This document shows, in pieces, positions 1 through 10,009 of a DNA stretch of 10,009 bases. The position numbers were made by a program, and so were the translations under genes. Numbering within the stretch: the first letter of the stretch is position 1; each line of letters starts with the position of its first letter. Location of the stretch: the NCBI GenBank assembly GCA_003644265.1, contig QNBX01000159.1, positions 1 through 10,009 on the forward strand. The letters are read 5' to 3'. The notes beneath the pieces are model-generated. The model worked only from the letters and a program-made list of their open reading frames with translations. It made no database searches and had not been told where the DNA came from. This DNA is from Planctomycetota bacterium. Its GTDB lineage: Bacteria > Planctomycetota > B15-G4.

Positions 1-1863
1 GAGCGCCGGGTTGCCGCGCAGCAGCTCGACCATCTCGAGCGCGGCGGCGGCCTGCAGCCCGCGCGAGATGTCCACCCAGCCGGTGGTGGTCCAGGCCTCA
101 GCCGTGGCCAACGCGCGCGCGTTCCCGGCGGCCTTCCCCGCAAAGAGGCGCGCCTCGGCCGATCGCAGCGCGCGCTCGTCGAAGCCCTGCCACGCGGCCT
201 GGGTGTCCAGCAACGCGCCCGTACCGAACTCCGAAACGAAGCTGGGTCCGGCGGGCGCCGCGACGGTCGCCAACTGCTCGCGCACGGCGGGCGGCAGCGG
301 ATAGGGCGGGTACAGGTGCTCGTCGAGCATGGGCTGGAAGGCGTCGTCCGCGCCGGCGTCCAGGTAGGCGGCGCGTCCGAAGAAGCCACCGGAGTCCAGC
401 AAGACGGGCCGCGTGGGATCGGCCAGGTGCAGCCGCTGCGCCAGCTCGTGGCCGTGGCGGTAGGCCATGCCCGAGAGCTCATTGAGCACCCCCCACATCA
501 CGATCGAGGGGTGGTGGTGATCGCGCGCCAGCATGGCGTCCACCTCGGCGGCGAGGCGCGCGGCCAAGGCCGGGTCGTCGTCCACCCAGCCGATGGCCGG
601 CTCCTCCAGCACGAACAGCCCGACCCGATCGGCGGCGTCCAGGAAGGCCGGGGGAGCGGGGCGCACATGCGCGCGGACCAGGTCGAAGCCCGCGTCGTGG
701 ATGGCGTTCAGCTCCGCGACCAAGACCTCGTCACTGGGCAACATGCCGCCGGAGCCCACGAAGTGCGGTTGCCAGAGCACGCCGTGCAGCCGGCGCGGGC
801 GCCCGTCCAGCAGCAACCCGTCCTGGCCCAGGGCGAGGGTCCGCAGGCCGAAGCTGCGTACGCCGTCGGGGTTGGCCGCCTCGTTGCCCACGGAGACGCG
901 GGCCTGATAAAGGTGCGGCGTCTCCGGACTCCAGCGCAGCGCGTCGGGCAGCGACGCCGAGAGGCTGAGCGTGGCGGCGCCCTGCTCCAGCGAGACCGTC
1001 ATGGCCTTGACCGTGACCAGCGCCTCGGGGCCACCCTCGTCGGGAGACAACAGCACCACGGTCAGGCGCACGTCCGCTGAGCCCTGGCCGGGCGGCCCCA
1101 CGACCTCCACCTCGGCCCGGATACGCTCCTGCGAGGCGTCCACGTGCAACCACGACAGCCGCGCCACGGGGCGATCGATGCGCACCAGGCCCACGTCGCC
1201 GAGCACGCCGCCGAAGTTGTGGTACCAGCTCTCCTTGGCGTGAGGCGTGGTGGCAAGGCTCATGCCGTCGGTGGTCATGTCGCCCGGATCGAGCACGCGC
1301 AACACGAGCGAGTGGCGCCCCGCGCGCAGCTCGGCCAGGTCCCACGAGAAGGCCCTGTAGCTGCCCTCGTGCCCACCGATCTCCTCGCCGTCCAGCCAGG
1401 CGCGCACGGCGTAGTTCACCTGCTCGAAGTGCAGGCGCCAGCGCGAGCCCGCGGGCGCATCACCAGGCAACAGCTCGAAGCGGTGGGAGAGCCAGGCCAC
1501 GCCGTCGTACTCCACGGTCTGATCCAGCGCCTCAAGCGGGCCGGGCACAGGCAGGTGCAACAGTTCGCCGGGCGCACCGGGCGGGATCCGGCCTGCGCTC
1601 AGGTCCTCTGCCCAGCCGTCCGTCAGACCCACGGCGCCCGGATCCACCATCAGTGACCAGCGCCCCGCCAGGTCGAAGCGTGCCCCGCCAGCGCGACCCT
1701 CGGCGTGCAGCAGCGCCGGCGGCTCGTCGCCCCAGCTGTCCGGCCCGGGCGCGCTGACGGCCAGGGGCGCCAGCAACGCGAGTATCAGCCCCGCCCGCAG
1801 ACCATGGACCTTGAGCCGTCCGGAGCCCAGGATGGAGGTGATCGGTTCAAGGGTGAGAGACAA
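1..1863 (-). CDS. Exported glycoside hydrolase family 2 (beta-galactosidase/beta-glucuronidase superfamily), C-terminus cut by window edge
   Basis: The minus strand is open from the left edge to at least 1863 (621 codons, no stop), so the gene continues beyond position 1. Numbering from TTG at 1863, residues 22-38 form a signal peptide (LRAGLILALLAPLAVSA) with likely cleavage after Ala38. Residues about 60-215 resemble the GH2 sugar-binding jelly roll (FEQVNYAVRAWLDGEEIGGH), followed by an Ig-like domain. The TIM barrel carries SIVMWGVLNE with acid/base Glu462 and FVSEFGTG with nucleophile Glu545. The 83-residue spacing matches the family (76 in LacZ). Tyr518 in HLYPPYP fits the active-site tyrosine. 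Family membership is therefore strong; the substrate (beta-galactoside, glucuronide or other) cannot be read from the sequence. It should act in the periplasm or outside the cell. The start is uncertain: no in-frame ATG exists, TTG 1863 or GTG 1872/1875 are the options, and an ATG at 1805 is one base out of frame. It is divergent from a polysaccharide lyase-like gene. Confidence 0.88.
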   Translation of the reverse strand, partial: MSLTLEPITSILGSGRLKVHGLRAGLILALLAPLAVSAPGPDSWGDEPPALLHAEGRAGGARFDLAGRWSLMVDPGAVGLTDGWAEDLSAGRIPPGAPGELLHLPVPGPLEALDQTVEYDGVAWLSHRFELLPGDAPAGSRWRLHFEQVNYAVRAWLDGEEIGGHEGSYRAFSWDLAELRAGRHSLVLRVLDPGDMTTDGMSLATTPHAKESWYHNFGGVLGDVGLVRIDRPVARLSWLHVDASQERIRAEVEVVGPPGQGSADVRLTVVLLSPDEGGPEALVTVKAMTVSLEQGAATLSLSASLPDALRWSPETPHLYQARVSVGNEAANPDGVRSFGLRTLALGQDGLLLDGRPRRLHGVLWQPHFVGSGGMLPSDEVLVAELNAIHDAGFDLVRAHVRPAPPAFLDAADRVGLFVLEEPAIGWVDDDPALAARLAAEVDAMLARDHHHPSIVMWGVLNELSGMAYRHGHELAQRLHLADPTRPVLLDSGGFFGRAAYLDAGADDAFQPMLDEHLYPPYPLPPAVREQLATVAAPAGPSFVSEFGTGALLDTQAAWQGFDERALRSAEARLFAGKAAGNARALATAEAWTTTGWVDISRGLQAAAALEMVELLRGNPAL

Positions 1864-4667
1864 TGCAGCCACCACGAAATCAGGAACGCACAGGATATCG
1901 GCTACTTCCAGCCGGTGGCAGAAATGGCACGCAGAGGAGCGCGCGCAGCTCTCCACCCGTACACGGCCTGGCCGCGCTGGCGTTGGCATGGCTGCTGGCC
2001 AGCGCGTGCGTCACACCGGCGGTCCGGCATGTGCACATCCCGGTGGAGCCCGGCCACGATGTGGGACGGGATCCGGGCCCGGCTGTCACGCCACCCACGA
2101 CAGCGGACGCGGCCGGCGCAGGCGCCCCAGCCCAGCCAGGCGCGAACGCGGGGGCCTCCGGGGCCGCCGAGGCATCCGGAATCGCCGGGGCATCCGGGGC
2201 CGCCGGGGCATCCGGGGCCGCTGGGACCTCCGAAGCCGCCGTTGCCACCGGGGCCGCAGGAGCCGCTGGGGCCGCCGAGCCGCCGAGCGCCAGCGTCGCG
2301 CAGGCGCCGCCTCGCCAGGAAGCAGAGGCGATCCCCGACGCCCCCCAGAGCGCCGCCACGCCGCGCGTGATCCCGAGCGCCGAGGCCCTGGCCGCGCGCA
2401 CGGCCCTGGCACACTTGGACATCTCCGACCGCAGCTCGGTCTTCCGCGCCAACGAGCCCATTCGCTGCGGCGTGCCCTTTCCGGCCGGTGTGCTCGAGGA
2501 CGCGGCGGAGCTGCGCGTGTGGTCCGCCCGCGACGGCGCCGCCCTGCCAGTCCAGGCCCGCCCGCTCTCGCGCTGGCCCGACGGCTCGCTGCGCTGGGTG
2601 CTGCTGGACACCCGGCTCGACATCAACAAGAAGAGCACGGAGCGCGTGGCCATCGGGCGAGCCGATGACATCCCCGCTGGCGACGACCCGTTCACGCTGC
2701 ACACCGAGGGCGACGTGGTCAGCCTCGACTCCGGCGACCGCAGCTGGGACGTGCTGGCGCCCCTCGAACAGGGCCACTCGGTGGCGGGGCTGGTGGCCGA
2801 TCTGGTGGACCGCTTCGGCACGCAGTACCGGCTGGAGGTCGACCCGGACTACCTCGAGCTGATCGAGAGCGGCCCGCTGCGGGCCACGCTCAAGCTGCGC
2901 GGCGGCCACCGGCAGGTGGGCAGCGAGACCGGCCTGCCTGACCCCTTCCACACCGTGACCATCTGGATGCACGTGCACGCGGACCTCGGCCTGGCCGAGC
3001 TCGAGTGGAGCCTGGAGAACACGCCCCTCAAGAACCCGCCCGGCCGCTTGGCCTTCTCCAGCTACAGCCTGTCCGCCGCGCCGCCCGAGGGGCTGACCCA
3101 GGTGGAGCTGGCGGGCCGCCGCTTCGGCGCGGAGGAGGCCGTCGTCCAGCTCCAGACCCAGGGCAAGACCCTGCTGACCGCAGGCGACGCCAAGCAGCCG
3201 TCCGGCCCCGAGACCGACCTCTGGATGGGCCTGCTGGGTGAGGGCGAGAGCCTGCATGCGCACCGCGTCGAGTCCAGACAGAACCACCCCGCCTCCATGG
3301 CCTGGACGCCAGAAGAGGGCATGACCATCGGCCTGCTGCCGGCGATCGAGGGCGTGGACCACTACCTTGACGACGCCACCCGCAAGACGTTTCGCTTCGA
3401 GCTGCTGCACGACGCGGGCGCGGCGGGCGCCGCGCGCATGCGGCGGCTGATCGAGCCCGCCTACGCCGCGCTGCTACCCAGCGAGGTGGCGGCCTCCGGC
3501 GCCTGGGGTGACACCGGGCATGTCTACCTGCCCACCGGCAAGCTGAAGACAAGCGGAGGATCGTCGTCGCACAAGATCCCCACCGGCTGGGCCGATTGGG
3601 GCGAGGCCAAGGCCAAGAACACGCACCAGAGCGGCTCGCCGCGCAACCGCCTGAGCGTGTTTCTGGAGGCCATGCAGTCCGGCAGCCCCGACCGCTTCAG
3701 CTGGAGCCGCTCGCGAGCCTGGCACGCCATGGACCTGCGGCCGTATCACATCGAAGGCTTCAACGCCGACGTCTACCCGCACGCCAACCTGTACGAGGGC
3801 ACGCCGCACGGCAACGAGAGGCCCTCCCTGCGCCTGGGACGCAGCGAGATGTACCGCCGCTTCCCCGAGTGGAAGCAGGGCCTGCCCTCCCGCGGCCACG
3901 GCTACAACGGCTTCGACTTCGAGCACATGGCGATCGACGACGTGTACGAGTGCTACCTGCTCACGGGCAGCTGGCCCGCGCTATCGGCCCTGCGCTCGGC
4001 GGGAGAGGCCATGCTCACCTGGAAAGAGCTGGTACCCAAGGGCCACATCCACTCCTCGCGGACGTTTGGCTGGACGCTGCGCGCGCTGATGCAGGTCTGG
4101 CGCGCCACGGGCGACAGCCGCTACCTGGATGCGGCCCGGCGCTACGTGGCCCGCGCCGACGCCGGGCGCGGCAAGGGCGAGGTGAAGTACATTCGCCCCC
4201 AACTCCCCGACGCGCGCCACATCGCCGACAAGTACTCCGACAGCCCCTGGATGATGGCGCCCGCGCTGCATGGCCTGGCCGCCTATTGGCAAGAGACCGA
4301 GGACCCGCTCGTGCCACCCATGCTGGTGGATCTGACGGCCTTCTGCATGTCGGCCTTCCGCGGCGTCGGCTTCCTGCCGGACATGCCCGCGGACGGCAGC
4401 CCCATGCCCGACGAGGTGCCCCAGACCATGGGGGTCGGCAGCTGGGTCCCCGGCGGCCTGGCGGCGGCGGCCTTCGTGCTCGACGACCACACCTACGTGG
4501 ACGCCACCATCGGTTACTACGCCAAGCTGCACGCCCACACCAGCCAGCCCGTGCGCTTCGGCGCCAAAGACTGGCACTGGTGGCAGACCTGGATGGTCTC
4601 GGTGGAGCAGCGCCTGGGTCGCAAGGTGGTCGAGAGCCCGGCCTCGTACGCAGCGCCCAGACGCTGA
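1863..4667 (+). CDS. PcRGLX/YetA-like protein, probable exported exo-rhamnogalacturonan lyase family (PL26-like) lipoprotein
   Basis: This is a 934-residue protein. The only in-frame ATG near the N-terminus is 1863, with AAGGG at 1849-1853 as a plausible ribosome site. A basic N-region of 35 residues precedes a hydrophobic stretch (36-48) ending in LLASAC, so Cys49 is a likely lipidation site; the N-region is unusually long. Residues 97-138 are 14 Gly-Ala-X-like triplets, a probable flexible spacer. From about 180, the segment EPIRCGVPFPAGVLE and RWPDGSLRWVLLDTR (237 on) match the N-terminal RIFT-barrel domain of the PcRGLX/YetA family. A middle beta-sandwich follows (SGPLRATLKLRGGH), then an alpha/alpha-toroid domain with FDFEHMAIDDVYE (684 on) and HSSRTFGWTLRA (730 on). 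Known family members remove unsaturated disaccharides from rhamnogalacturonan I; activity here is inferred, and a related polyuronide could be the substrate. The divergent GH2 supports a carbohydrate role. Confidence 0.75.
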   Translation: MQPPRNQERTGYRLLPAGGRNGTQRSARSSPPVHGLAALALAWLLASACVTPAVRHVHIPVEPGHDVGRDPGPAVTPPTTADAAGAGAPAQPGANAGASGAAEASGIAGASGAAGASGAAGTSEAAVATGAAGAAGAAEPPSASVAQAPPRQEAEAIPDAPQSAATPRVIPSAEALAARTALAHLDISDRSSVFRANEPIRCGVPFPAGVLEDAAELRVWSARDGAALPVQARPLSRWPDGSLRWVLLDTRLDINKKSTERVAIGRADDIPAGDDPFTLHTEGDVVSLDSGDRSWDVLAPLEQGHSVAGLVADLVDRFGTQYRLEVDPDYLELIESGPLRATLKLRGGHRQVGSETGLPDPFHTVTIWMHVHADLGLAELEWSLENTPLKNPPGRLAFSSYSLSAAPPEGLTQVELAGRRFGAEEAVVQLQTQGKTLLTAGDAKQPSGPETDLWMGLLGEGESLHAHRVESRQNHPASMAWTPEEGMTIGLLPAIEGVDHYLDDATRKTFRFELLHDAGAAGAARMRRLIEPAYAALLPSEVAASGAWGDTGHVYLPTGKLKTSGGSSSHKIPTGWADWGEAKAKNTHQSGSPRNRLSVFLEAMQSGSPDRFSWSRSRAWHAMDLRPYHIEGFNADVYPHANLYEGTPHGNERPSLRLGRSEMYRRFPEWKQGLPSRGHGYNGFDFEHMAIDDVYECYLLTGSWPALSALRSAGEAMLTWKELVPKGHIHSSRTFGWTLRALMQVWRATGDSRYLDAARRYVARADAGRGKGEVKYIRPQLPDARHIADKYSDSPWMMAPALHGLAAYWQETEDPLVPPMLVDLTAFCMSAFRGVGFLPDMPADGSPMPDEVPQTMGVGSWVPGGLAAAAFVLDDHTYVDATIGYYAKLHAHTSQPVRFGAKDWHWWQTWMVSVEQRLGRKVVESPASYAAPRR
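2151..2276 (+). repeat. Gly-Ala-X triplet repeat region coding the lipoprotein spacer
   Basis: Fourteen consecutive 9-base triplets in the lyase-like gene encode residues 97-138. Eleven begin with Gly (GAS, GAA, GIA, GTS) and three break the pattern (EAS, EAA, VAT). The DNA holds near-exact copies of a GGCATCCGGGGCCGCC core. There is no proline, so a collagen helix is unlikely; a flexible tether between the lipidated N-terminus and the enzyme domains is the simplest reading. The copy number is prone to slippage. Confidence 0.7.
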
Positions 4668-7744: not shown

Positions 7745-9172
7745 TCAGCCGTCGAAGTACATGTCGAACTCAAGCGGGTGCGGTCGCGTCTTCAGCGGCA
7801 GCACCTCGTTGGTCCACTTGGTCTCGATGTAGGTCTCGATGAAGTCCGCGTCGAACACGTCGCCGCGCAGCAGGAACTCGTGGTCGTTCTTGAGGGCCTC
7901 GAGCGCCTGCTCCAGGCTGGTGGGCGCATCCCGCACCTGCGCCAGCTCTTCGGGCGGCAGGTCGTAGATGTTCTTGTCGAGCGGCTCGCCCGGGTCGATG
8001 CGGTTCTGGATGCCGTCGATGCAGGCCATGGCCATGGCGGAGAACGCCAGGTAGCCCGTGGCCATGGGGTCGGGGCAACGGAACTCGAAGCGCTTGGCCT
8101 CCGGCGCGCTGCTGAACATCGGGATGCGGATGGCCGCGCTGCGGTTGCCGCTGGAGTAGGCCAGCTTGACGGGAGCCTCGAAGTGCGGCACCAGGCGCTT
8201 GTAGGAGATGGTGGCCGGGTTGGTGAACGCGATCACCGCGTCGGCGTGGCGCAGCAGGCCGCCGATGGCCCAGCGACCGATGTCCGAGAGTCCAGCGTAA
8301 CCGTCGCCGGCAAACAGGTTCTTGCCGCCCTTCCAGAACGACATGTGCACGTGCATGCCAGAGCCGTTGTCGCCGAAGATCGGCTTGGGCATGAAGGTGG
8401 CCGTCTTGCCGGCGCGCACCGCGCAGTTCTTGACGATGTACTTGAACCACTGCAGCTTGTCGCCCATGGCGAGCAGCGAGTCGTAGCGCATGTCGATCTC
8501 GCCCTGACCCGCGGTGGCCACCTCGTGGTGGCTGCGCTCGACCGTGATGCCCACCGTCTCCATGACCATGGCCATCTCGCTGCGCAGGTCCTGGAGTTGG
8601 TCGATGGGCGGTACGGGGATGTAGCCGCCCTTGGCCTTGGGGCGGTAGCCGGTATTGGGGCCGCCCTCACCGCTCTCCCACCAGCCACCCTCGGACTCGA
8701 TGCGGTAGAACGAACCCTGGGCGTTGTTTTCCCAGTGCACCGAGTCGAACACGAAGAACTCGGCCTCGGGGCCCACGTAGATGGTGTCGCCGATGCCGGC
8801 CGCCTGGATGTACTGCTCGACGCGACGGGCCACGCCGCGCGGATCCCGGCTGTACTCGTCCTTGGTGATGGGATCGACCACGTTGCCCACCAGCACCAGC
8901 GTGGGCTGCTCGTAGAACGGGTCGACCTGGGCGGTGGAGGCGTCGGGCACCACCAGCATGTCGCTCTCGTCGATGCTCTTCCAACCGCGGATGGAGCTGC
9001 CGTCGAAGCCGAAGCCGTCGCGGAACGACGCCTCGCTCACCTGGTGATGCGGCACCGTGAAGTGCTGCCACTGACCGAACAGGTCGCAGAAACGGATGTC
9101 GACGAGACGGATGGCGTCTTCGCCGAGCATGTCGACCACATCCTTTGGGGTCAGGACACGATTCTCAGACAC
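7745..9172 (-). CDS. glnA: Glutamine synthetase type I-beta
   Basis: The 475-residue protein makes glutamine from glutamate, ammonia and ATP in the cytoplasm as a dodecamer, the main entry of ammonia into metabolism. Visible family motifs are the DGSS loop (Asp57, equivalent to Asp50), GPEAEFFVFD with metal-binding Glu136 and Glu138, KPIFGDNGSGMHVHMS with His274/His276, the NPATISYKRLVP loop, NRSAAIRIP, and RFEFRCPDP. The extra segment around 155-190 and Tyr403 in KNIYDLPPEE, equivalent to the adenylylated Tyr397, place it in the adenylylation-regulated I-beta class. The length fits (469 in E. coli). The start is GTG (9172-9170), supported by a GAAAGGAAAG purine tract at 9179-9188 about 9 bases upstream. 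It is the second gene of a glnB-glnA pair with a 116-base gap. No glnE or glnD lies in the window. Confidence 0.97.
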   Translation of the reverse strand: MSENRVLTPKDVVDMLGEDAIRLVDIRFCDLFGQWQHFTVPHHQVSEASFRDGFGFDGSSIRGWKSIDESDMLVVPDASTAQVDPFYEQPTLVLVGNVVDPITKDEYSRDPRGVARRVEQYIQAAGIGDTIYVGPEAEFFVFDSVHWENNAQGSFYRIESEGGWWESGEGGPNTGYRPKAKGGYIPVPPIDQLQDLRSEMAMVMETVGITVERSHHEVATAGQGEIDMRYDSLLAMGDKLQWFKYIVKNCAVRAGKTATFMPKPIFGDNGSGMHVHMSFWKGGKNLFAGDGYAGLSDIGRWAIGGLLRHADAVIAFTNPATISYKRLVPHFEAPVKLAYSSGNRSAAIRIPMFSSAPEAKRFEFRCPDPMATGYLAFSAMAMACIDGIQNRIDPGEPLDKNIYDLPPEELAQVRDAPTSLEQALEALKNDHEFLLRGDVFDADFIETYIETKWTNEVLPLKTRPHPLEFDMYFDG

Positions 9173-9288
9173 GGGCTGCTTTCCTTTCGAAGGAGGTCAA
9201 GTCGCACGCCCGAGGGGCGAGCTGGAGTGCTTCGGGATGGGTTGTTGGTGCCGCGGGCACGGGAACGCCGCGGGAGTCGATGGCGTCA
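9173..9288 (-). other. glnB-glnA intergenic leader with two short hairpins
   Basis: The 116-base spacer holds the glnA ribosome site (9179-9188) and two small inverted repeats. GTGCC/GGCAC (9248-9260, 3-base loop) and CGCCC/GGGCG (9207-9219, 3-base loop) would form compact hairpins in the minus-strand transcript. They could be RNA processing or partial termination points between glnB and glnA. No sigma-70 or sigma-54 promoter is clear here. Confidence 0.35.
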
Positions 9289-9597
9289 TCAGATGGCCTC
9301 CGGGCCGGTCTCGCCGGTGCGGATGCGCACGACCTCGTCAAGGCACCAGGTGAAGACCCGACCGCGCTCGCCGCCGCTCTGCTCGATGGCGTGGACCGCG
9401 GCCTCGACGAAGTCATCGTTGACGCCGACCTCGATGCGCACCATCGGTTCGGGTGACACGTCCGCCAGCGCCATGCCCGCCATGTCGGAGACGCCATGCA
9501 CCTCGCTCACCGTCATGCGGAAGATCTCCGCCTCAGCCAGCAGGGTGGTCACCGCTGCGAGCCGTTCGGGCGCGATGATGGCCTGGACCATCCTCAT
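9289..9597 (-). CDS. glnB: Divergent PII-family protein with shortened T-loop and B-loop
   Basis: The 102-residue protein is clearly PII-like. It starts MRMVQAIIAPERL, has the VSEVHG strand, VRIEVGVNDDFVEAAVHAI, and ends VRIRTGETGPEAI. Classical PII trimers sense ATP/ADP and 2-oxoglutarate and bind partners such as the GlnE adenylyltransferase or NtrB through the T-loop. Compared with 112-residue E. coli GlnB recalled from memory, the T-loop is about 6 residues short: Phe36-Gly-Arg-Gln39 is replaced by VSDM, and no tyrosine stands in for Tyr51, so uridylylation is impossible. The B-loop TGKIGDGK is replaced by a segment 4 residues shorter (QSGGERGR), with Arg80 for Lys90. Arg91 and Arg93 of the C-loop (Arg101/103) are kept. 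It precedes glnA in the usual glnBA order. The ATG at 9597 fits the PII N-terminus, though no good Shine-Dalgarno is visible. Ligand binding and partners are unknown; the gene symbol reflects family and position only. Confidence 0.88.
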   Translation of the reverse strand: MRMVQAIIAPERLAAVTTLLAEAEIFRMTVSEVHGVSDMAGMALADVSPEPMVRIEVGVNDDFVEAAVHAIEQSGGERGRVFTWCLDEVVRIRTGETGPEAI

Positions 9598-9760: not shown

Positions 9761-9775
9761 TGGCTGCGCCATTCC

Positions 9776-9869
9776 GAGCGGGCCGGGTGGCCGAGCGGGC
9801 CGAGCGGGCCGGGTGGCCGAGCGGGCCGGGTGGCCGAGCGGGCCGGGTGGCCGAGCGGGCCGGGTGGCC
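9776..9869. repeat. 17-bp tandem repeat array (five full units and one 9-bp partial)
   Basis: The unit GAGCGGGCCGGGTGGCC occurs perfectly at 9776-9792, 9802-9818, 9819-9835, 9836-9852 and 9853-9869, with a 9-base partial copy (GAGCGGGCC) at 9793-9801. A degenerate copy follows to about 9885. The 17-bp period is not a multiple of 3, which argues against coding. The units are identical, so the expansion is recent or homogenised by slippage. There are no unique spacers, so it is not a CRISPR array. Confidence 0.9.
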
Positions 9870-10009
9870 GAGTGGGCAAGCGGGCGGGGCTGGCAGGAGC
9901 GTGAGCAGCGGCAGGCAGTGACCCGCGGCAGGGGTGTGAGCAAGAGGGCTCGAAGCGTCCAGCGTGCGGCGGTCGAGGACCAGCTCTGGAAGCGTCCTGT
10001 TGTCCCGGA

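Follow-up and report, generated by a model that had tools for sequence, protein, structure and literature searches.

A conserved PII protein with shortened T- and B-loops encoded beside glnA in Planctomycetota

PII proteins are among the best-known signalling proteins, and most of their known partner contacts, together with the response to 2-oxoglutarate, are carried by the T-loop. The stretch of planctomycete DNA analyzed here, 10,009 nucleotides long and hereafter called the window, encodes a PII protein in which this loop is shortened. The locus thus raises the question of whether such a protein is a genuine form of PII or a damaged copy, and, if genuine, what it might sense and act upon at glutamine synthetase. 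The original prediction, made from the letters of the window, was that the gene is not simply decaying and may belong to a PII subfamily that senses something else, or that binds glutamine synthetase or another partner without the usual T-loop and modification. As a whole, this interpretation is supported in part by the results below.

The 102-residue ORF matched the P-II profile PF00543 over residues 1–96 with 56.6 bits (cut-off 25; E 3.5e-15). Its scores against the NCBIfam equivalogs GlnB (NF008111; 47.4 of 202 bits) and GlnK (NF007946; 40.6 of 181 bits) were below the curated cut-offs, and it does not have the full-length T-loop with GRQKG and Tyr51 that characterizes canonical GlnB and GlnK. 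The reading frame is clean, as had been claimed, and an in-frame TGA on the minus strand, three codons 5' of the ATG, makes a longer N-terminus impossible. The C-terminal RIRTGETG is likewise intact. An AlphaFold2 model, which is of the monomer and does not extend to the trimer or to partners, had the PII fold, with a mean pLDDT of 82 and a value of 57 at residues 41–50. The best 50 matches of this model in the PDB were all PII entries (probability 1.00, TM ≈0.7). The neighboring glnA on the same strand is intact, again as predicted (Table 1). From its motif and the numbering, we take Tyr403 of the window GlnA to correspond to Tyr397 of E. coli GlnA, the residue that is adenylylated there.

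Table 1. Positions of the short PII gene, its loops and the neighboring glnA in the window.
Feature	Position	Strand	Basis
Short-loop PII (GlnB-type) protein, 102 aa	9289..9597	-	ORF, Pfam, relatives, alignment
Remnant T-loop region, residues 36–55 (VSDMAGMALADVSPEPMVRI)	9433..9492	-	20 residues versus canonical 26
Shortened B-loop, residues 74–81 (SGGERGRV)	9355..9378	-	Alignment
Intact C-loop RIRTGE (canonical R101, R103)	9310..9327	-	Alignment
Gap of 116 bp, PII stop to glnA start	9173..9288	-	Sequence coordinates
glnA, type I glutamine synthetase, 475 aa	7745..9172	-	TIGR00653, 608.8 bits (cut-off 429)
GlnA Tyr403 in KNIYDLPPEE (residues 400–409)	7964..7966	-	Motif position

Elsewhere in the window, a GC-rich tandem array (17-bp unit, ≈6.6 copies) was found at 9774–9894, which puts it about 180 bp upstream of where the PII gene begins, and no known RNA element reached its gathering threshold. 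A gene for a PcRGLX-like protein (Pfam PcRGLX_1st) is divergent from one for a GH2-family glycosidase (1863–4667 and 1–1989), and the PcRGLX-like gene was also matched in four of the five relative loci. A link between the PII protein and heavy metals was considered, as a convergent gene for a CopA-type ATPase lies downstream and is conserved in all five loci tested. This idea was rejected, since nothing ties the ATPase to PII.

A search among 5.8 billion proteins returned 205 relatives of the window PII, of which the best 120 were examined. The top 62 of those listed were 67–99% identical to it, and 58 of these 62 were 100–102 residues long. They were followed by four partial or odd rows and then, among the matches listed, by the first full-length PII (P0067), at 48% identity. 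Conservation was read from an alignment of 58 rows, made up of the window protein and 57 database relatives, all of 100–102 residues. Nine rows of P0001–P0066 with odd lengths or a hybrid appearance were left out (P0010, P0042, P0052, P0060 and P0062–P0066), among them P0062, whose N-terminus looks like that of an ordinary PII and whose C-terminal part looks like that of the short clade.

Alignments to planctomycete canonical PIIs and to E. coli GlnB (112 residues) placed the losses in the window protein at six residues of the T-loop and a net four of the B-loop, in agreement with the original estimate. Both deletions were common to all 58 aligned sequences, and T-loop residues 43–48 were missing from every one of them. 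Following the loop, a block with the sequence SPEPMVR is near-invariant in the clade, and R27, N60 and E72 (window numbering) are invariant (58 of 58). Nei–Gojobori dN/dS values among the window and six genomes carrying close homologs were 0.07–0.29, well away from 1, in 20 of the 21 pairs, with dS saturated in the remaining pair, and the sister genomes had the same short loops rather than full-length ones. Decay, an assembly error or a lone degenerate copy were therefore rejected, because 57 relatives share the length and the deletions and dN/dS is low. The short PII is a real and conserved variant of PII, and the predicted subfamily exists as a clade with shared deletions under purifying selection.

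We then considered which ligands such a protein could still bind. In the PII trimer, each nucleotide site is formed at a subunit interface, with the B-loop and the base of the T-loop coming from one subunit and the C-loop from its neighbor, and the side-chain ligands of 2-oxoglutarate are given as Arg9, Gln39 and Lys58 in PMC8395244. By that list, all three are replaced in the short clade. Residue 9 is alanine in 56 of the 58 sequences (K9A), position 39 is methionine in 37, threonine in 14, leucine in six and serine in one, and Lys58 is methionine in all 58; the changes at positions 9 and 58 add to the original prediction, which had named Gln39, Tyr51 and Lys90 as replaced or absent. These three are indeed changed in the window protein: Gln39 is methionine, the T-loop contains no tyrosine, and Lys90 is arginine, a conservative replacement found in 58 of 58 sequences. 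By the same list, the adenine-nucleotide pocket keeps most of its side chains: T29, F92, R101 and R103 are each retained in all 58 sequences. Two further nucleotide contacts in the list, G87 and D88, are gapped throughout. In the shortened B-loop, R78 and R80 (window numbering) are invariant in 58 of 58, R80 sitting at the place of Lys90. The idea that the protein senses something else thus stood only in part. Replacement of the 2-oxoglutarate side chains speaks for it, but the retention of T29, F92, R101 and R103, with arginine for Lys90, speaks against it and makes a narrower input, limited to adenylates, likelier than a new ligand, as far as can be judged from the residues.

The genomic context was examined by a pattern scan of one genome per species over 84,980 species, which yielded 114 relatives; from these, 79 loci were retained. 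Among the 79, five match the window PII at 73–77% identity, all in Planctomycetota MAGs, and the remaining 74 match at 34–42%. A sixth genome with a short PII was found in a second genome set. In all seven loci with readable context (the window and the six genomes), the short PII gene immediately precedes glnA, with both genes on one strand. The distance from PII to the GlnA match was 73–101 bp in the six relatives. The window GlnA and those of the six relatives formed one group in the GlnA tree, with support of 100/100. A glnB gene for a full-length PII also lies just ahead of glnA in three alphaproteobacterial loci (L055, L056 and L061), and therefore adjacency alone does not imply binding. 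The order was reversed in one planctomycete-survey genome (G112; L125/L154), where a short-looped PII follows glnA.

Partner genes were sought in an order sample of 14 genomes (a class-level search gave the same 14); the gene sets described are those of the relatives' genomes and not of the window's own. The short PII, a GlnA at 67–79% identity and a single ORF carrying PF08335 twice all occur in the same six of the 14; in the one genome where this ORF was scanned, it is GlnE (PF03710). None of the six, which are genomes of unstated completeness, had an AmtB match, and none of them had GlnD at E≤1e-30. Weak matches to the GlnD profile, at 1e-9 to 1e-12, occurred in four of the six and were read as cross-matches. 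The absence of GlnD at this threshold, together with the missing tyrosine, supports the claim that the usual modification is gone. A GlnE-regulated GSI-β pathway may be present: a GlnE-type ORF occurs in six of six relatives and the KNIYDLPPEE motif in the window GlnA. Among the order-mates outside the six, only one had a PF00543 match above cut-off (G010:C141:21038-21328; L099, L148).

We favor, with a probability of about one half, a reading in which the short PII is a body-only, 2-oxoglutarate-blind and adenylate-reading PII that acts on GlnE and/or glutamine synthetase, with both target and ligand deduced from sequence and gene content. The T-loop plugs AmtB and carries the tyrosine modified by GlnD; with both of these partners lost, nothing would hold the loop in place during evolution. 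The short PII trimer would then read the ATP/ADP state alone, and this state would be relayed through the surface of the PII body to GlnE and/or directly to GlnA. Glutamine synthetase activity would in this way be set with no input from 2-oxoglutarate or uridylylation. The gene has probably been kept beside glnA, even though the loop has gone, because the loop partners were lost and the role at glutamine synthetase remains.

Comparison with known systems brings out what has changed. The canonical GlnB of Planctomycetota has a similar body (RLTVSDVQG, AVNDDFVEPTI) and the same RIRTGE tail; one example (L141 in G138) is located ahead of glnA, as is the short PII, and another (P0068) is 45–50% identical to it. 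Unlike the short PII, these proteins have a full T-loop, FGRQKGHTEVYRGHEY, with the tyrosine, Gln39 and Lys58, as well as a long B-loop. E. coli GlnB and GlnK share the fold, the adenine-pocket residues and the C-loop with the short PII, but have 26 residues between G35 and E62, compared to 20. As described in PMC4285133, the E. coli proteins are uridylylated at Tyr51 by GlnD and bind AmtB and 2-oxoglutarate. The short PII looks like a natural counterpart of Azospirillum brasilense GlnZ Δ42–54, a man-made T-loop-less protein that, according to PMC7196632 and PMC11617674, still binds NadE2 and UmpH with no response to 2-oxoglutarate. A complex of DraG with GlnZ lacking residues 42–54 is also in the PDB, going by the title of entry 5ovo. 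Unlike this construct, the short PII is natural and in a fixed state, and its ligand residues and B-loop are altered as well. The c-di-AMP receptor PstA/DarA likewise combines a PII-like fold with changes in the T- and B-loops. It belongs to another sequence family, whereas the short PII falls within PF00543 and has the adenine pocket of PII.

Alternatively, the trimer might be a dedicated glutamine synthetase partner that caps the GlnA hexamer and stabilizes or inhibits it directly, as Methanosarcina mazei GlnK1 does, but through other surfaces and with GlnE irrelevant. This protein is the closest PDB sequence to the short PII (8tge, the glutamine synthetase complex; E 3.1e-14), and the constant position ahead of glnA in seven of seven readable loci, the near-invariant SPEPMVR block and the invariant R27, N60 and E72 would also fit such a role. 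However, nearly all contacts in the GS–GlnK1 complex come from T-loop residues 44–52, with the body contributing only long-range electrostatic interactions, according to PMC10651883. This binding helix is mostly missing from the short PII, with residues 43–48 deleted in all 58 sequences, and direct binding to GlnA of the M. mazei type is therefore unlikely. The full-length PIIs ahead of glnA in the three alphaproteobacterial loci also weaken the argument from gene order. On balance, we regard a dedicated glutamine synthetase partner as doubtful. A second alternative is that the protein is still an ordinary GlnB in which loop length is unimportant and the loop decays in a relaxed, near-neutral manner. 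The loops of other glnA-linked planctomycete PIIs are very diverse, ranging from 14 to 37 residues and in some cases of low complexity, as would be expected under such relaxation. The short clade, in contrast, has a fixed loop length, the near-invariant SPEPMVR and methionine at position 58 in 58 of 58 sequences with no drift, and the low dN/dS also argues against relaxation, making this explanation improbable.

A different possibility involves a second PII protein, which has full T- and B-loops and no RIRTGE tail. Such C-terminally cut PIIs were found at L085–L089 and L101 (G001–G006), and also at L262, L266 and L268–L270. The family is broad, with 119 of the best 120 relatives listed lacking the tail. 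T29 is absent from the cut PII in all six genomes that have a short PII and kept in four of five other planctomycete copies. In three of three loci scanned, the gene adjoins one of the XdhC/CoxI family, and the literature matches listed, as titles and starts of abstracts, included no paper on a pairing of XdhC with PII. One sequence, P0127, appears to be a hybrid of a cut-type PII with the tail RIRTGETGPDAI; it and P0062 are either assembly chimeras or recombinants.

Mixed PII oligomers exist, for example NifI1/NifI2, and the short and cut PIIs could be a complementary pair that forms mixed trimers with a complete 2-oxoglutarate/ATP site at only one kind of interface. Both proteins are present in six of six genomes, with their genes 22–27 kb apart in G001, G003 and G006. 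The short PII keeps T29, R101 and R103 and lacks R38, Q39, K58 and G87, whereas neither T29 nor the RIRTGE tail is present in the cut PII, which keeps R38, Q39, K58, G87 and K90. By the description of the cleft in PMC8395244, the residues lost from one protein and those lost from the other belong to different sides of the site between subunits. The cut family, however, extends as far as a Gammaproteobacterium (P0197), and cut PIIs also occur in other planctomycete genomes, including G148, which has canonical loops, with T29 retained in most copies read. The cut PII is therefore too widespread beyond the short-PII genomes for its tail loss to have arisen as half of such a pair, and we consider a complementary pair very improbable.

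The wider erosion of the T-loop in Planctomycetota without AmtB is a more interesting result than the single locus. The window PII was matched in 223 of 392 sampled Planctomycetota genomes at 1e-3. We read 144 distinct PIIs from 130 loci (30 + 100 regions) in 126 genomes of unstated completeness, using the best listed rows down to E 9.3e-11, with about 18 weaker listed rows left out. Because the listing ran from most to least similar to the window protein, it over-samples short-loop forms; C-terminally cut PIIs are outside the counts. Loops were labelled canonical or eroded by a simple regular expression, and a few assignments are doubtful: the G147 PII (L249) was labelled eroded although its loop resembles those of the amtB-linked L225 and L234, and the G229 PII (L214) and one from G195 (L247) were labelled canonical although they lack GRQK. 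GlnD was scored at E≤1e-30 (108 genomes positive), and GlnE was counted as PF08335 matches less one for GlnD, with no GlnE profile. The AmtB list omits G227 (2.2e-4) and G319 (9.2e-6). G171 and G256 were taken out of the eroded-only set, because each holds a separate amtB-adjacent PII.

PIIs encoded next to amtB, or next to glnD with no adjacent glnA, had ordinary loops of 25–26 residues in 76 of 77 cases (13 also with glnA). Those filed under glnA only consisted of 11 canonical and 27 eroded forms, with loops of 14–37 residues and unrelated sequences; these 38 include three with glnD within 1.5 kb (L164, L188 and L214), two of them eroded. Where no such neighbor was seen, eight were canonical and 21 eroded. 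Only six of the 49 eroded PIIs, compared to 93 of the 95 canonical ones, were in genomes with AmtB (p 1e-27, ignoring descent). For PIIs adjacent to glnA, the corresponding numbers without and with AmtB were 24 and three for eroded loops and one and 23 for canonical loops (p 3e-10, also ignoring descent). Counted by genome over the 126, AmtB was missing from 43 of 45 that have only eroded loops among the PIIs read and present in 79 of 81 with canonical loops; the exceptions, G075 and G174, combine an Amt match with eroded loops. A complete GlnE was found in 41 of the 45 eroded-only genomes, being absent or incomplete in the other four, and in 47 of the 81 with canonical loops, so that GlnE is not singled out as the target. 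If G147 is moved out, AmtB is missing from 42 of the remaining 44 eroded-only genomes, and GlnE is present in 41 of them.

GlnD was retained in 16 of the 45 eroded-only genomes. Ten eroded loops with a tyrosine were in genomes with GlnD and none in genomes without, while of those lacking tyrosine nine were in genomes with GlnD and 28 in genomes without (p 1.8e-5, ignoring descent and omitting two amtB-type rows, G390 and G147, that have the tyrosine and no GlnD). With these two included, the tyrosine-bearing loops were 10 with GlnD and two without (p 5e-4). The tyrosine was missing from nine of the 19 eroded loops in GlnD-bearing genomes. The complete 2-oxoglutarate triple was present in none of the 49 eroded PIIs and in 87 of the 95 canonical ones. 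Q39 and K58 were both kept in 13 of the 49 eroded loops, and loop loss is therefore not always accompanied by loss of these ligands.

When the eroded label was placed on the GlnA tree, it required four changes, compared to a mean of 17 after shuffling, and the independent pairs numbered one with support and four on the best tree. The AmtB comparison therefore has no power once descent is allowed for. T-loop erosion is linked with the absence of AmtB in Planctomycetota, but since descent clusters the association, the link is suggestive only. GlnK contacts AmtB almost exclusively through the T-loop, according to PMC4285133. Tentatively, and with less confidence than in our reading of the short PII itself, we propose that the T-loop may be dispensable for the work of PII at glutamine synthetase, with AmtB as the main partner that preserves it in glnB-type PIIs and GlnD as the one that preserves its tyrosine. 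Once these partners had gone, the loop would have been eroded or replaced in several planctomycete forms, with the window clade as an end state, a natural body-only PII blind to 2-oxoglutarate. AmtB is not the sole preserver of T-loops, since the cut PII with its full T-loop persists in the six AmtB-less genomes. The literature matches listed, in the form of titles and starts of abstracts, included no report of T-loop loss in Planctomycetota; subscription papers, such as a 2009 survey of the PII superfamily, lay outside this set. A natural loop-less PII clade beside glnA, with no AmtB or GlnD detected, is a ready system for separating the role of the PII body from that of the loop, and lets one ask which partner preserves which part of the protein.

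The survey also included other unusual T-loops. One planctomycete group of 111-residue PIIs (L119, L122–L124, L126–L135, L158 and L167) has a scrambled T-loop resembling GH[QH]R...IExFKKLKL and alanine at position 9. Its genes had no glnA, amtB or glnD match within 1.5 kb, and none of the 16 genomes had AmtB above cut-off or GlnD at E≤1e-30. Another set of PIIs (L121, L160, L164, L175, L176, L188 and L212), from genomes that carry GlnD, has alanine-rich T-loops of 30–37 residues with a single tyrosine in an AxAYA-like context.
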